Shown here: in pieces, positions 31,240 through 57,180 of the stretch
Position numbering within the stretch: the first letter of the stretch is position 1
Layout: the number at the start of each line of letters is the position of its first letter
Assembly (NCBI GenBank): GCA_963971285.1
Contig: OZ020247.1
Span: 7,646,614-7,710,613 of the forward strand
DNA length: 64,000 nt
Source: Astropecten irregularis
Taxonomy: Eukaryota; Echinodermata; Asteroidea; Paxillosida; Astropectinidae
Reading direction: 5' to 3'
Translations under genes and position numbers: made by a program
The notes under the pieces: generated by a model
What the model was told of the DNA's origin: nothing
What the model saw: only the letters and a program-made list of their open reading frames with translations
Databases searched by the model: none

Positions 31240-32366
31240 CATATTCGTGAAATAACCACAAGGGAAACTGACTGAGTTATTTTAAGTCATTGAAAAGTGA
31301 ACAAAGAAAAATTGACTGGAGCGGGATTCGAACCGGCGACCTCCTGAATACCGTACAGGCGCTCTACCAACTGAGCCATCCAGCCCTATGTTGGTGGTGA
31401 CCCCAATAGTCAACTATCCTTGTTCGTTTGGCAGTGTATCCTCTTTGAGTGATCCCCCATGTACCGTTCCCAGGTTGCAGCATTGTTGCGTGTATCATTG
31501 AAACGATCCCTGGGGTGTGGCGGTGTGTGCGTGGTTTCATGGCTTCATGGCTTCTGACTGCCAAACGAACAAGGATAGTTGACTATTGGGGTCACCACCA
31601 ACATAGGGCTGGATGGCTCAGTTGGTAGAGCGCCTGTACGGTATTCAGGAGGTTGCCGGTTCGAATCCCGCTCCAGTCAATTTTTCTTTGTTCACTTTTC
31701 AATGACTTAAAATAACTCAGTCAGTTTCCCTTGTGGTTATTTCTCGAATATAATAATTAAAAAGCCGTATCCTCTTTGAGTGATCCCCCATGTACCATTC
31801 CCAGGTTGCAGCATTGTTGCGTGTATCATTGAAACGATCCCTGGGGTGTGGCGGTGTGTGCGTGGTTTCATGGCTTCATGGCTTCTGACTGCCAAACGAA
31901 CAAGGATAGTTGACTATTGGGGTCACCACCAACATAGGGCTGGATGGCTCAGTTGGTAGAGCGCCTGTACGGTATTCAGGAGGTCGCCGGTTCGAATCCC
32001 GCTCCAGTCAATTTTTCTTTGTTCACTTTTCAATGACTTAAAATAACTCAGTCAGTTTCCCTTGTGGTTATTTCACGAATATAATAATTAAAAAGCCGTA
32101 TCCTCTTTGAGTGATCCCCCATGTACCGTTCCCAGGTTGCAGCATTGTTGCGTGTATCATTGAAACGATCCCTGGGGTGTGGCGGTGTGTGCGTGGTTTT
32201 ATGGCTTCTGACTGCCAAACGAACAAGGATAGTTGACTATTGGGGTCACCACCAACATAGGGCTGGATGGCTCAGTTGGTAGAGCGCCTGTACGGTATTC
32301 AGGAGGTCGCCGGTTCGAATCCTACTCCAGTCAATTTTTCTTTGTTCACTTTTCAATGACTTAAAA
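31240..32366 (+). repeat. Tandem array of tRNA-bearing repeats with an inverted first arm
   Basis: A roughly 190-bp arm contains GGCTGGATGGCTCAGTTGGT, ACGGTATTCAGGAGG and GGTTCGAATCCCGCTCCAGT, and ends CTTGTGGTTATTTC. It occurs once inverted (31240-31435) and three times direct (about 31560, 31890 and 32210). Between arms is a conserved core (GTATCCTCTTTGAGTGATCC to GGCTTCTGACTGCCAAACG). Core starts at 31436, 31767 and 32098 give a 331-bp period. The tRNA-like part can form acceptor and D arms, but has a T-T mismatch in the anticodon stem, C at position 33 and a mismatch in the T arm. I therefore read it as tRNA-derived and not as three tRNA genes. Confidence 0.8.
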
Positions 32367-35385: not shown

Positions 35386-37175
35386 CCTCAAGGGTTAAGC
35401 TAAGCCTAAGACTATAAAAATAAGTAGATTTTGATGTAGTAGAATGAAGAAAGGATAAAGAAATAAAATTCAAACTATCACTAATTACCTTACTTTGCTT
35501 AATGAATATGCTTTAATTTTATGAACAAAATTTCCCTCCAAATTTGATAAGAAACAAAACAGTAACCTTGAAAATATGGAGAAAATTCAGGTTCGATCAT
35601 AAAGAAGACAATCAATGCATAAACAAGGAATTGCCTCTACTTCCGTAGTCAAAAATAAACTTGAAAATAATCCCTTTCAGTATTAGTTAACTGCAAATAC
35701 TGATTGTCCCAAATTACTTATTTTAATCACGGAGACATCAAATCATTCTTCCCAAGTCAAACAGTTCAATGTTTACATATGCAAATGAGTAGTTTAAGCA
35801 CACTATGCCGGTGTACGTACGTCACTACGTGTGGGCTGATGGGTCAATTTCCACCGCTGATCATGTGTTTAAAATCCACAAACATCCTCCCTCTGTGTCA
35901 TTACAATTATCATTTAATGCGATATCTTTACAAAGTAATATCTCATTTATCACTTTTGTCTATTTTGTGTCGTGACAATCAATATTGTTGCCTCAAAAAT
36001 CAAACGAAAATTAGAGGTATGACAAGCTATGACGGTGTGGTTTCACATTAATTCTGTGTGTACACGTTCACGTGCACCATGCATCACACACACAACACAC
36101 GACCGGTCCGGCTCGGCAAAATCATTCAACAACGTACGTTCAGCAATCAGGCCACTGACATCCGGGACAAAAAAATCACACTTCTGATCGTCAGATTTCA
36201 CCAAAATTTCACAACAAGGTAGTTGAAATATCACTTTATCATACTGTATACCTTTTAATATTGTATGAACATCCGATCTATGAATAGGAGAGGGCTGAAT
36301 GTGACCAAACAATTCGAGTCGATCGCACGATCGCAAGGAGCTACGAATCCGATTTTTGTTTCCACAGGATTTTAGAATGAGTCTTCAACTACACAATATC
36401 GATGACGTATGAAGAAATCCCCCCCCGGCAGCCAATCAAAATGCCGCATTTGTAGGGGAGTCCCCTCAGCAGGGCTACACGGCCGCGCAAGCGCATAGGA
36501 CATTTCTGGCCAACGCACAGTGCATGGATTGTAACGTACCTACATGTTACACTTTAAGTTATAATGTTTTTCTTTCCTTTTGGCCTTTTTTAAGTCGGTA
36601 TCAATCAATGTAACACACGAGTATTCCCTTACAGGCATTTCTATAAACATTATTCATGTATTTATTAATCTATTCCTTCTGACGAAGCACATTTTGATAA
36701 TGACGCATTCAATTCACCTTTGTCTGTCATGTCTAGTTTATTGTCCCCGCAGGATTTGAAGTATATTCCCGATGATGGCAGTCCAAAATCGTCCGCTATT
36801 TCAAACCGCAAAACCACCAAAGAAACAGACATGTGGAAGTTCCAAAACGCGACTGGCTTTCGTCTAAATAGTTACATCTTTGCAAAAGGTTCCATTTATA
36901 ACACAGAAGCAGTTCAAAATGCCATGGAAAGTTGAGATAATCAGTCCGGTAGAGTTTGACAGAAATCCATGTTTTCAATCCAGGGACGACAAGGTAATCA
37001 GATGCAATTCTGCATTGTGTGCGTAACACACAAATTGCCATGCATTGAGTCTAGGTACCAGATTTCACTACGCAATAATAATAATAATCAATAGAGGGCG
37101 GGCTATAAATAAATTGACCGGGGAAAAAAAATTATATGACGAGTGACGCATGACAGATAATAACAATAATTTTTT

Positions 37176-47828: not shown

Positions 47829-48217
47829 GGAAAGAATTCCACTGACGGCCATCACTTGTGCACAAACCTATGGGACCAACAGAGGGCGTTTTTATAAAAA
47901 TGGCTACCGCTGCATTCGAAGTGTATAATTGTATGTAAAAAAACCCTGAAAATCTCACTTTTTAGATAAGCTACACCCTGTTTCCGTCATGGCCATCATT
48001 GGAATTCTTTCCGAAGTGGGAATTATGACTTGCAATGTTTTCGGAAAGAATTCCACTGACGGCCATGACGGAAACAGGGTGTAGCTTATCTAAAAAGTGA
48101 GATTTTCAGGGTTTTTTTAACCTACAATTATACACTTCGAATGCAGTGGTAGCCATTTTTATCAAAACGCCCATAGGTTTGTGCACAAGTGATGGCCGTC
48201 AGTGGAATTCTTTCCGT
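47829..48217. repeat. Long near-perfect inverted repeat (hairpin arms ~170 bp)
   Basis: GGAAAGAATTCCACTGACGGCC through AGCTACACCCTGTTTCCGTC to GGAATTCTTTCC is followed, after a spacer of about 30 bases, by the reverse complement of the same sequence. Both arms contain ACACTTCGAATGCAG-type and CTCACTTTTTAGATAAGC sequence. Confidence 0.8.
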
Positions 48218-48373: not shown

Positions 48374-49478
48374 AATGTCATGCGTGTTCCATTGTCATGT
48401 GAATGCCGCCTGAAGTAAACCATGTCCTAGGCTAGGCTAAACCGTCTTCGATCATGGCATCGATGCAGGTTGTCCATGAATTTAAGTCGGGCTACACCAT
48501 CCGGTCCACATCGGTCCATGAGTGACTGTATCCAAGATTGGCAAAACCTCAAAGTCTAAATGCAGCACTTAATGACATAGGCCTACACGTACTGCCTAAT
48601 GTAGCCTTGTAGGGGAGTGAGATGCCCCGGTCTCTATAGTCAGTGTCTTGTGCCTGGAGCTGAGCCGATCGAGGTCCACAGCTCAGTTCAGCATTTTCAA
48701 TCGGCGATCTGGCGCTAAATTCTCCACGGGCACCAAAATGTTTGCAGCAATGATGATGAATATCGTGTAAGGACACGAAAGAAGAAGAAGATTTTGACAG
48801 TTCATCGTGACGATCCGTGACGACATTGACAGTCCAATTTTCACGCAGGCTTTACAGTACAGACTATGCAAACGCGGGAAATCGGAGAGCTGCAGCGAAC
48901 TCTTCTTTATTCTAATGCAAATTGTCGCTGCCTTGTCCAGGATCCTCATTGTAATGTGATGAGATTTATTTCTTACGTCACGGTAAATACAAACAGCTTA
49001 TTTCACTTTGAACGAAGTTTTTGCAATATGTCCCAAACCCAGCTGACGGCTTGTGAAATGAATCTGTGCATGTGATAGCTAGCCGACCTTTTACTCACTG
49101 GTAAGTGGTATACGTCACGATTCATCACTGTCTTGATTCAAGACGGTATTGGTGTGGATACTCGGAACGCACTGACCATACATATGTACGTATAGGTAAT
49201 CCGCACACACATACGCACGGAGCTATCACTATATTAAAGGCCATACAAAAAAATTGTTGTATTGGCGTAACCCGCCCGTCCCAAAAATATGCCCCGACCG
49301 TAAACATTTTAAACCCCCCAAAAAACCCACAAAACAACAAATTTAAAAATAAGAACGGGAACCCCCCCCCCAAAAAAAACACAAAAACACCCGCCATCTA
49401 GACTATGTCACTTTTCACCATCACTATGCCAGGACCCAAGCTCTTAAATTCACACCTATAAATAATTTCCCCCGGTTA

Positions 49479-51600: not shown

Positions 51601-51780
51601 ATGCAAATTAGGTGAACAGCGCCGCTCATTATGACGTCACGAGCAAATTTCGCTTCGCGCGCTCGCCAAGACTTCGGCCGATTTCGGCCCGACTCGCTTC
51701 GGTTTTATGAATGAAATCTTTATGCATCGGGTGTCGCACATGCGCGAAAATACATCGATGTCAAGCTAAAGATGGCTGCT
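51601..51780 (+). promoter_or_regulatory. Candidate promoter with octamer, CRE and YY1-like sites
   Basis: A perfect octamer ATGCAAAT (51601-51608), a perfect CRE TGACGTCA (51632-51639) and a YY1-like AAGATGGCTGC (51770-51780) lie in a CpG-rich patch just before a good first donor. There is no TATA box at a canonical position. Confidence 0.45.
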
Positions 51781-54661
51781 TCCTGGTGCCGAAGAAAACG
51801 TGAAAATCGGTGAGGTTTTCGGTGAGTTTTGACAGTTTGAACATTTTTTTGCCGTCTTCCTTTTCGGAGCTGAAACTTCGTTTTGTCTGAGGGGGTCCAT
51901 CTTTTTAATCCAGTTTTTCTTCCTTCTCGAAATTGGTTGGAACTAAACTGCATTAGGTCTGAATAGTGGAGGGTTTCAGCTGTCGAATAGTGTGGCACAC
52001 GTTGGTGGTCGGTCTGATACTGCGATGGTCGCGAGCGATATGCATAAAATTCATGGTCATTTTTCGATTGAACTTCCATAATTCGCGAATTATTTTCATG
52101 TGCGCAAGTGATAAACACGTGCGCGCGCAGGAACCAACTTATGTGTTATTGTTATATACGTACATGTACATGTACATGTACATGCCATGTACTGTATATG
52201 ATGTAGGGCCTACTGTACAGTACTGTACGTGATTACTGGATTAGAAAGCATCGTAATAAAAAAATTCAATTTTATTTTCTTGCTTGGAATTTTTTTATCC
52301 TACGTTTGGTATGAACATTTAAATTATTCAGGGATGTGGGACTTCAGATTTAAATCTGAATTCCGATAAAAAAAAGAAAGATTTTAACTCCAAATTAATT
52401 TCAGATCTGAAAAATAGGTAGACCTACAGGAACTTTTAAATTTTAGATTTTTCCTTGGTGTTTTTTTTACTGTTTTCAGATTTTGTGTGTGAGCCCACTC
52501 ATCTCCGAGTTATGATCGTTAAACATTTGTACAGTATATATTTCAAATTTGACCTTTATTGTTTATTTTGGTCAGTGGTTTATTTAACAAGTCATGATTA
52601 TACATTGAAGTCCTTGCCCAAATGCCAATTTAAGTCGAAGCAGGTAAACTTGTATGGCAATAAACTTATACGCTGACCAACTCGTACCCTACATTATTAC
52701 CAACTCGTACGCCGATCAACTTGTACGCCACTCAAGTAATTAATCAGGTTTTTATTCGAGGGGTTTGAGGGATCGGATATTTTCAGGACAAGTTCTTTTT
52801 TTTAGGCTTTCCATTTAAGAGGATAACAAGATTTGTTTTCAATGTATCAATGGTTTCCTTTTTCTAGTGATACATTTTTCAGGGGATTGATATTTTTAAG
52901 GGGAAGAAACTTGAAAAAAAAAAAATCCAGAATCCCTGAAATTCAGAGAAAAGTCATTTCATTGGAAATGGTGTACGAGTTGATTGGTGTATGAGTTGAT
53001 CGGCGTATGATTTGGTTGGCGAACATGTTGACCTACTTTAGTATATATCGACTCCCGACTTCATGGAAAAAAATTATAGTATTGTATAGTCATCACTCAT
53101 AGATTATGCTTTTAAATATGGTAAATAAATGAGCAGTTCAAACCTGTAGTAGTTTTCAAATTTCTACTTCAGAATGTACAGTATACGGTAATTAACTTCA
53201 AGTTTTTAGAAATTGGTTGAACAGACAATTGAATATTGATAACAACCTAACAATTGTGGAAAAGAAAGACTTCGAACTAGATTTTGTTTCAGAAATAATT
53301 CTGAAACAAAATCTAGTCCGAAGTCTTTCTTTTCATAATTCTAAAACAAAATCTAGTCCGAAGCTAGTCTAGTCCGAAATTTAGTCCGAAGTTTCAGAAA
53401 TAATTCTGAAACAAAATCTAGTCCGAAGTCTTTCTTTTCCACAATTGTAAAAAAAAAAAAAATGTGTCTTAACTACTTTAACAGTACTCTTTGATCTTGT
53501 TCTTTTCAGAACAATGGGCGAGTTAGACGGACGCAAAAACATCCTCAGCAGGTAATGCAGTAGTGCAGGATTTACAAGACCCCCTTGAGATACCTCCGTA
53601 ATATCAGTACAATCATATCAGTAAGTGAGTGATTGAGGTATTGTATAACATAGATATTACTGAAGATGATTTGAATGTGCATCCTTCTAAGATGTGTAAT
53701 GAGTGTAGAATTATGATAACTACTGGTACATGTATATCAAATCCCCTGGTGAAGAAGAATCGGTACAACGGCAACATCATGTACCTACATACACCAGCCA
53801 CAATTCCTCCTCATTCACAATATTGTGAGATATGTATCGTAAAATATGGTGCCACTACCCCCCCCCCCAAAAAAAAACAAAAAAAACAAACAATATAAAT
53901 AAATAAAACTGTATTTTATTTTAAGAAATATAAATCACAAAGAGAGTGTGATTAAGATCCACCTGTTAAGCTTAGTGGGCTGCCTTCACAATAATCTGAG
54001 ATTGTTCATCCGGGACAGAGTTTGAAGTTTTTTTTTCATCACATACAGTTTAACCATCCCAATGTTAGCATCAATAGTCTTTCTATCAGTCAATCCCACA
54101 TTTCTTTGCTTAAAAGTATATAAACACAACTAAAATGACTCTATTTATATGTCCATTGAACGGATGGTTTTGTGCTTTTGACTATTGTTTTTTCCTCTCC
54201 TGATTTGTATTTCACGGCTACATGTATGATTTGCTCTTACCTTTGCACACACATCACAGCTAGTTGGTTCTGAGGCAAGGGACATCATTGTCCAGCACTA
54301 TGACTTGAAAAAGTTCCTTGAGACATACCTCCGGCCTCCGACTAGCATCAAGGGTATCAACATTTCAGGTAATAATATTTTTAAAAGAAAAAAAATGTGT
54401 CCTAAATTTCACCCCACCTTATCACTCCTCAGTATGCTGTTAATATGCAAGACATTAATCTTAATAATTTTTTTTTTATTTCGTTTGTTTTTTGTGATTC
54501 AAGGACTACACAAACCTGGAGTTATTTTTTCCAGGAAGTCCCTGCAAGACCCTGAAACACCAATCCACCCATCACCCTCCGGCCAGCTGATCTGCCAGCC
54601 CCCAGAGAGATCCCACCACCAGGCTTGGATCCACAACGATAGTGCACTGCAGTGGTATTGA
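51772..54661 (+). CDS. Small multi-exon gene, unrecognised
   Basis: Proposed exons are 51772-51809 (MAASWCRRKREN), 53510-53551 (MGELDGRKNILS), 54260-54368 (LVGSEARDIIVQHYDLKKFL, YLRPPTSIKGINIS) and 54504-54661 (GLHKPGVIFSRKSLQDPET to QWY stop). All flanks are GT or AG. Exons 1-2 and 3-4 join in phase. Exon 2 ends in phase 2 while exon 3 begins in phase 0, so an exon is missing between them or one junction is wrong. A further open segment at 54642-54836 (KMHQFRSDQATKNTAYPLP, GPLFGTHTL) faintly recalls the tails of Pierce1/Pierce2 ciliary proteins. That resemblance is weak and from memory. No function is assigned. Confidence 0.35.
52640..53040. mobile_element. Inverted-repeat element with TGTACGCC/GGCGTATG motifs
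   Basis: Left: CAACTCGTACGCCGATCAAC and related units. Right: GTACGAGTTGATTGGTGTATG and GTTGATCGGCGTATG. The ends are made of several short copies. Confidence 0.5.
53253..53447. repeat. Cluster of interleaved palindromes upstream of the 53.5-kb exon
   Basis: GAAAAGAAAGACTTCGAACT, TTCTGAAACAAAATCTAGTC and AGTCCGAAGTCTTTCTTTTC alternate, giving nested hairpins. It ends about 60 bases before an acceptor. Confidence 0.65.
53638..53898 (+). pseudogene. RAG1-like zinc-motif (ZDD N-terminal) fragment
   Basis: The open frame reads DLNVHPSKMCNECRIMI and, about 35 residues later, IPPHSQYCEIC, then a Lys-rich tail. The pattern HP-x3-C-x2-C ... PH-x3-C-x2-C matches the motif just before the RAG1 core in jawed vertebrates (HPTxFCHxCW ... 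HPHTPSCDIC). Relatives occur in RAG1-like transposons and gene families of echinoderms, amphioxus and other invertebrates. A stop lies just upstream in frame, no acceptor of suitable phase joins it to the exon at 53510, and no RAG1 catalytic core is seen nearby. I therefore read it as a fragment inside an intron of the surrounding plus-strand gene model. It might instead be an exon of a RAG1-N-like gene. AATAAATAAA follows its stop. Confidence 0.55.
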
Positions 54662-54839: not shown

Positions 54840-57180
54840 TTGCTTCAGTTATACATGTACAGTTAGAGTCAAATGTCCCTAAAATGTACATTTTCATTCA
54901 GATGGTCTTCCTTGATAATAGGAATTGGAACAAACCAGAGATTTTCTCATTTCTCAATCATTGTTTTACAAAATGTTATTCATTAAAATATGTTATTCTT
55001 TTTGTATGAAAGAATGTATTTTTTTCACAAGAAAACGGGGAAAAAATTCCAATCCAGACCCAGTGATTTATTCAGTAGCAACACTACAATAATCCAGATA
55101 AGGGATTTCCATGAGACTTACACCATGATGCATTTTATTTTCATGGATTTTTTACACAAATGTTATTGTTTACCCAGAAAAGGAAATGGTACAATGTTAT
55201 TTGTCAACCTGCATGTTACATGGAGTTTCTTGATTAAAAATGAATGTAAGTCCAAGGGAGAACTTAGCAGAGAAATTTCCACGGCTCATTTTTGAACAAT
55301 AGTTTCAATTTCACACTTTTTGCCCTCATAACAAACGAGTTTTTAATCATCAAAACAATGTCGGATAAGAAAACTAGCTCAAGTTTTTATTAGTTGAAGG
55401 CATTAAAATACTTACAAATGTGACAGTAAACCGCAAATTGTGTTCATTGTGAGTCTTGAGTGTGTTTGTTTAGATCATATTTTGTTCTAGAATGAGATTA
55501 TTCGATTAATATAAAGATAGACAGATAGATCGAGGGATTAAATATATTTACTCGGTGTTAAAAGATAAGAGATTGATCAGGATGAAGTGAGGAGCTGCCG
55601 AGTTTACAACAGTGTTCGTTAAGTGTACGTTTGTCAAGTTGTCTCGATTCATTCTTCTTCGCTTCCTTGATGTAATTGGTAAACCCAAATTTCACAATAA
55701 GCAAACAAGTCTGGAACAAGATACAAAACTCTACAATTTCAAGGGAATACAAACTCAGGAATATATAGGTTGCTAAGCCAAATATGTAAAGAGCATAATA
55801 TGCCGTATCCATTCCAGTTGTAGCACTTTTTATCTATGTTTTGCCTGTTTAACCTTACAGACTGATCGAGAAACCAAAAAAATAATACAGAAAAAATAAT
55901 ATACTACAATAAGTCACACCATTTTTAAACCAATCTCAATTTCTGCTGCTGCTCTTTCACATGAACCCCAAAACTCAAAACAAACATTCATCTCATGAAC
56001 CCCTACAAGTGTCATTTCCTTTTATTTGCATGTCTCTTGCTTTCTTGGGAAAACTAGTAGTGAACATCGGGATTCTCCGACCATAAACTTTGATCTCGAT
56101 CACTTTTGCAGGATGTAGGCTTTGTTCTTTATCCATCCAAATAACCACGGGTACCATCCAGACTTCTTCAGATCTGAAATGTTATTAATATGAAGTTAAA
56201 TTTACTTAAAACATATACACAGAAAGTCACAGATTACTGTGTATTTCAGTGGCTAATTTACACATAATGTAGAAAACCACGTTTGCCGAATTATTGTACT
56301 TTGGAATACTAGAATTCCATTGCATTTGGTAAAAAAACATGAAGCAAGAAGTTTTAAACGTGCTATTAAAAAGTATTAAAGTATTATTTAGCCTGAGGCC
56401 TAGGCCTATAATACACACTACATGTACATGTATACACACTGTACAGTATATCATACGTACAATACTATGCATGCATTGTACAGTCTGTACGTACACTGCA
56501 TGCACACAGGCCGGGCGTGGGAAAAAATCGGCTTACACGCACACTATGCAGCGATCTTTTGTGTGTTGCCCTTTTGACCCGGCCATTGCCATGGTAGCTG
56601 ACCACAAGCCTCGAGGTTCAGATTACGCCTGAGGGGAATGACCAGCGGCAGGAAAGTCACCGACAATTTTTTTCATAAAATGATTGCAAGTGCGCAGGCG
56701 CGCAAATTCCCGCACGATGTATAGGGCAGGTTTGTATGTGTACCTGTCATGTCAATTTAATTTCTGCAGAAAACCGAGAGAAGGTATGTTAATTTTTACA
56801 ACTAGTAAAAGTAGTAACAGTTACTCATACCATGGAGGAAGGAAATAGACTTCCTCCATGCTCATACCATCGATGTATAAAAAGGATATACCTCCATGCT
56901 CATTGTCATACGACTTGTCCAACCATGGCGGAAAGAATTACATTCCATGGGCCAACTACTTTAGACCCAATTTCATTAACGTACGAATTCATCAACTAAC
57001 GTTAGTATAATATTGTACCGTAATAGAAATTTTCGTTTAAAAATAAAATAAAAGACTGAGGATTTCTGGTTTTTATTTAATTAGAACTTGAATTGTTTAC
57101 TACAGAGTTAGCTGAAGTAACTGTAGCCCAATATTACTCCTGACGTTGTTGTCGTATATAGCTAGGGCTACAGGAAGATA
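54840..57180. other. Gene-free AT-rich stretch
   Basis: No supported exon or complete transposon. GGAGGAAGGAAATAGACTTCCTCC near 56832 is a small palindrome resembling GGAGGAAGTTTTATTCCTCC near 10962. Confidence 0.4.

Follow-up and report, generated by a model that had tools for sequence, protein, structure and literature searches.

We analysed a window of 64,000 nucleotides from the genome of Astropecten irregularis (GenBank assembly GCA_963971285.1, contig OZ020247.1), in which a short open frame on the plus strand holds a fragment related to RAG1. The first-pass annotation of this DNA had singled out two cysteine motifs, HPSKMCNEC and PHSQYCEIC. Both are indeed present in the frame at 53629-53898 of the plus strand, and a six-frame search of the whole window found the paired pattern only once. 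The features at the locus are the following:

53510-53551, plus strand: putative exon of 42 nt upstream of the fragment, predicted from consensus splice sites
53552-54259, plus strand: putative intron enclosing the fragment, predicted from consensus splice sites
53564-53629, plus strand: putative degraded upstream segment, read in a different frame, CRIYKTPLRYLRNISTIISVSE (CRIYKTPL...), proposed from the X-joined profile score
53629-53898, plus strand: stop-to-stop open frame of 89 aa that holds the RAG1-related fragment
53680-53706, plus strand: HPSKMCNEC, counterpart of HPTEFCHNC/HPTEFCHDC of RAG1 (C175/C178)
53809-53835, plus strand: PHSQYCEIC, counterpart of PHTPSCDIC of RAG1 (C210/C213)
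53861-53898, plus strand: poly-C/poly-A low-complexity tract and stop, encoding a PPPKKKQKKQ tail
54260-54368, plus strand: putative exon downstream of the fragment, predicted from consensus splice sites
54504-54661, plus strand: putative last exon, ending in TGA, predicted from consensus splice sites

The putative exons at 53510-53551, 54260-54368 and 54504-54661 share one open frame, and their predicted protein, together with the consensus splice sites, makes it plausible that the fragment lies in an intron of a plus-strand gene. No Pfam or PDB match was found for this protein. A plausible first exon of the host gene, with an ATG at 51772 and a donor at 51810, was considered and rejected, as by eye it gave no single open frame with 53510-53551 and 54260-54368.

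Just upstream of the putative exon at 53510-53551 lies a MITE-like palindromic repeat (53250-53448), which has two arms of 58 nt that are 95% complementary and includes partial copies nested within it; it was rejected as the carrier of the fragment because both of its arms are upstream of it. Inverted repeats built from ACCAACTCGTACGCC-like units occupy 52653-53016 (37 nt at 84%; 35 nt at 74%), and nested long inverted repeats at 47829-48215 (80 nt at 98%, 63 nt at 92% and 46 nt at 100%) resemble a hairpin-like element. Farther away, four copies of tRNA-Thr (GGT), one of them on the opposite strand, are found within about 1 kb (31313-32333), and among the 88 frames scanned from 272-35236 there were matches to BRAP2 (two members, best E 2.5e-18), zf-UBP (2.8e-21) and Neur_chan_LBD (7.5e-10), with no match for the 20 of these frames that were rescanned singly.

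The sequence of the plus-strand frame 53629-53898 is VIEVLYNIDITEDDLNVHPSKMCNECRIMITTGTCISNPLVKKNRYNGNIMYLHTPATIPPHSQYCEICIVKYGATTPPPKKKQKKQTI. A TGA in the same frame (53626-53628) stands immediately before it, and its first ATG (53692) falls inside HPSKMCNEC, just before the first cysteine, so that no ATG precedes the HP in this frame. In a Pfam profile search, the frame matched PF12560 (RAG1_imp_bd; RAG1 importin binding) with 26.8 bits and an E-value of 4.6e-6, a modest margin over the curated cut-off of 23.3 bits. Frame residues 2-78 (window 53632-53862) align with profile positions 146-209 of 284, taking in both cysteine pairs and an upstream IDI/D motif. The low-complexity tract, of which a similar one is found at 49361-49387, follows directly downstream of the homology. 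With the same model, the corresponding stretch of human RAG1 scored 230.8 bits, and the fragment is therefore a distant or decayed member of the family. The profile search thus bore out the first-pass annotation as to the family, and no other zinc family was matched above its cut-off: zf-DBF, considered as the family of the fragment, was rejected as sub-threshold (E 0.058; 13.9 bits against a cut-off of 24.8). An AlphaFold2 model of the single sequence was uninformative (pLDDT 35.7).

The part of RAG1 represented here is not the one previously proposed. In mouse RAG1, the central non-core domain is described as residues 87-217, with three cysteine pairs (C110/C113, C175/C178 and C210/C213), two bound zinc ions and a preference for double-stranded DNA, and mutants in any of the three pairs were proteolysed during purification; the ZDD, residues 265-380, borders the core (PMC3124419). 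The first-pass annotation had placed the motifs just before the RAG1 core, and this placement is wrong, since they correspond to residues 175-213, in the central non-core domain and upstream of the ZDD, while it is the ZDD that adjoins the core. The alignment of the fragment with RAG1 has 15 identical columns (21%), with the two motifs on C175/C178 and C210/C213, and the spacing between them, counted by eye, is eight residues longer than in RAG1.

Only two of the three cysteine pairs are kept in the frame, as neither a motif search nor the RAG1 alignment found an equivalent of C110/C113 in the fragment frame. What lies at this locus is hence a fragment and not a whole RAG1 central non-core, or Chapa, domain. 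Stray candidates for the first pair were picked up by a motif scan of the window (CRIC at 36442 and four others), none of them convincing by eye. The upstream peptide at 53564-53629, when joined to the fragment with X, gave 26.0 bits over profile positions 131-208, while two controls of about the same length scored 24.8 and 24.5; overall, X-joined upstream frames shifted the PF12560 score by at most 1.5 bits relative to controls. Set beside the central non-core domain of RAG1 (residues 87-217; PDB 21wb_A and 6oem_A), the fragment thus aligns in two of the three cysteine pairs and their flanking motifs, but its first pair was not found, it carries an eight-residue insertion, and neither a ZDD nor a core was found in the frames scanned.

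The explanation that best accommodates these observations, and that we consider quite probable, is that a DNA transposon left the fragment behind, as a decayed piece of its zinc-binding domain of the Chapa / RAG1 central non-core type. Candidates for the source are the carriers of the Chapa domain: Chapaev, Chapaev3, N-RAG-TP or a RAGL/TransibSU element. As part of the intact protein, this domain would have held zinc and aided DNA binding and nuclear entry, as reported for residues 87-217 of mouse RAG1. We read the fragment as decayed because of the in-frame TGA at 53626-53628, the low-complexity tract after the homology and the mostly poor splice acceptors nearby. Speaking against decay, the region that matches PF12560 is wholly open in the frame, though frames this long are common locally. 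With two of three cysteine pairs, no catalytic part found and no convincing route to expression, it would now play no role at the protein level and may persist as neutral sequence flanked by the consensus splice sites of what may be a gene on the plus strand. The family match and the failure of the scans to find the other parts are observations; we infer both the transposon origin and the loss of function, and a protein-level function is most likely absent.

We looked for the rest of such an element in the window. All 285 frames of at least 60 aa and 63 local frames of 22-59 aa (52.9-55.4 kb) were scanned against Pfam, 348 in total, in batches of 61, 88, 64 and 135, reporting E-values up to 0.01 (up to 1 for 64 local frames). 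The fragment was the only one of the 348 to match a RAG family; none matched the RAG1 core, the ZDD or a RAG2-like kelch domain. Terminal inverted repeats of 10 bp with at most one mismatch and target duplications of 4, 5 or 8 bp, with ends within 52.6-55.3 kb, yielded a single candidate, with a 4-bp duplication and none with 5 bp, against a mean of 0.33 in six simulated sequences, a count that is not clearly above chance and so lends no support to mobility. The ends of RAGL transposons are described as carrying a 5-bp target duplication (PMC8355894). Two heptamer-like sites were found within 52-56 kb (CACTATG at 54296 and CATTGTG at 55445), both downstream, so that the fragment is not flanked by them.

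No second copy was found in the window. A phmmer search at full sensitivity, in which the 89-aa sequence was compared with 2905 frames of at least 15 aa, recovered only the frame itself (next E 0.46). When the segment 52.5-55.5 kb was compared with the whole window by blastn, only the low-complexity tract and the neighbouring repeats recurred, and the coding part did not. Searches of viral contigs with the fragment and with a two-sequence alignment, and of prokaryote contigs with the same alignment, gave 5, 50 and 63 pattern hits, respectively, but no confirmed relative, and none was expected there.

PMC4411706 gives the name 'Chapa' to the N-terminal zinc domain of RAG1 and reports that, of the transposable elements known, only Chapaev, Chapaev3 and TransibSU carry it. 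Since Chapaev and Chapaev3 also have it (PMC4411706), a match named after RAG1 does not demonstrate a RAGL element. The N-RAG-TP of Aplysia californica (Panchin and Moroz 2008) is described as a mobile element of wholly RAG1 N-terminal-like sequence (PMC8355894, PMC2996935). By these descriptions, the fragment is like Chapaev and Chapaev3 in bearing the Chapa domain of invertebrate DNA transposons (PMC4411706), but neither a transposase nor a RING nor clear terminal repeats turned up here; it is like N-RAG-TP in being RAG1 N-terminal-like and free of a core (PMC8355894, PMC2996935), but its domain is incomplete and its terminal repeats are not clearly above chance.

A remnant of a RAG1-like (RAGL, ProtoRAG-type) transposon is a narrower version of the same explanation, and taken specifically we regard it as unlikely, although it is the best of the alternatives. 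In its favour, a single curated family is matched above its cut-off, and it bears the name of RAG1; RAG1 is also the only relative of solved structure. RAGL elements, in part fossilised, are reported from molluscs, nemerteans and many invertebrate deuterostomes, and most RAGL/ProtoRAG elements are described as having N-terminal zinc motifs (PMC7204232); a RAGL locus within an intron is reported in Lytechinus variegatus (PMC4411706). The missing ZDD is no argument against such an origin, because the RAG1L of echinoderms and of N. geniculatus is also described as having none (PMC7204232). Nevertheless, a match named after RAG1 cannot tell the Chapa carriers apart, no core or kelch match was obtained in the frames scanned, no convincing ends were found, and the two heptamer-like sites lie on the same side of the fragment. 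Moreover, the partial copies of echinoid type II RAG1L are described as mostly having lost the non-core region, rather than having kept it alone (PMC9885083). In our judgement, a Chapaev or N-RAG-TP source is at least as likely as a RAGL one. The first-pass annotation had suggested a remnant of a RAG1-like element; the mobile-element part of that suggestion holds as the best reading, whereas its assignment to a RAG1-like element in particular does not follow, given a domain common to Chapaev and Chapaev3 and frames devoid of core or kelch matches.

We also considered that an unrelated stretch resembles the PF12560 profile merely by coincidence, which appears very improbable. Such a coincidence would fit the small margin over the cut-off, which shrinks in shortened fragments (25.3 and 24.9 bits, both for 77 aa) and is gone for a 67-aa core (22.4 bits, slightly under 23.3). 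It would also fit the few identical columns, the eight-residue insertion and the weak result of phmmer against solved structures, in which a single chain, RAG1 21wb_A, was retrieved at E 0.068. The length of the frame, likewise, is not unusual: in 300 simulations of random local sequence, 1.3 open frames of at least 89 aa are expected per 4 kb, and four are seen in 52-56 kb. On the other hand, multiplying the E-value by the 348 frames scanned still leaves about 0.0016, and both cysteine pairs, the IDI motif and the HP and PH motifs occur in the proper order. None of nine shuffles of the fragment that held every cysteine and histidine in place matched PF12560, while other weak Pfam matches, all below their cut-offs, arose in five of the nine (best E 0.0086). 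The profile and these shuffles support a true match of the fragment to the RAG1-related family.

The candidate splice acceptors near the fragment look mostly poor. Of nine AG sites within 53562-53637, only that at 53636 (exon start 53638) leads stop-free into the fragment frame in a phase compatible with the exons on either side. This site is a GAG, preceded by 38% pyrimidines, and 84% of the AGs in the window are equal or better. The AAG at 53690 (exon start 53692), in the middle of the first motif, is also in phase and has 62% pyrimidines upstream, as has the putative acceptor of 54260; 23% of AGs attain this class. With the candidate donor GTAAAA at 53839, these sites delimit two symmetric candidate exons, 53638-53838 and 53692-53838, of 67 or 49 codons, both in phase with 53510-53551 and 54260-54368.

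Least probable, and very improbable in our view, is that one of the two serves as an exapted cassette exon (phase 0-0) inserting a transposon-derived partial Chapa domain with both cysteine pairs into an unrelated host protein: both acceptors and the GT at 53839 are in phase with the putative neighbouring exons, and the pyrimidines at 53690 equal those at 54260, but the tract at 53636 is poor, use of the site at 53690 would cost the insert its first HP, GTAAAA would have to serve as donor, the insert would have no C110/C113 pair, and no relative of the predicted host protein was found in Pfam or the PDB. Exaptation had been raised in the first-pass annotation as well; we found no positive evidence for it, only two in-phase candidate exons on weak or moderate sites.

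Most likely, the fragment is the dead scrap of a transposon, a relic and not a surprise. As a lone partial copy with no core, partner or ends, it is one data point and puts no account of the assembly of RAG1 to the test. The N-terminal zinc domain of RAG1 is thought to be transposon-derived, and relics of this domain in animal genomes mark the past movement of such elements.
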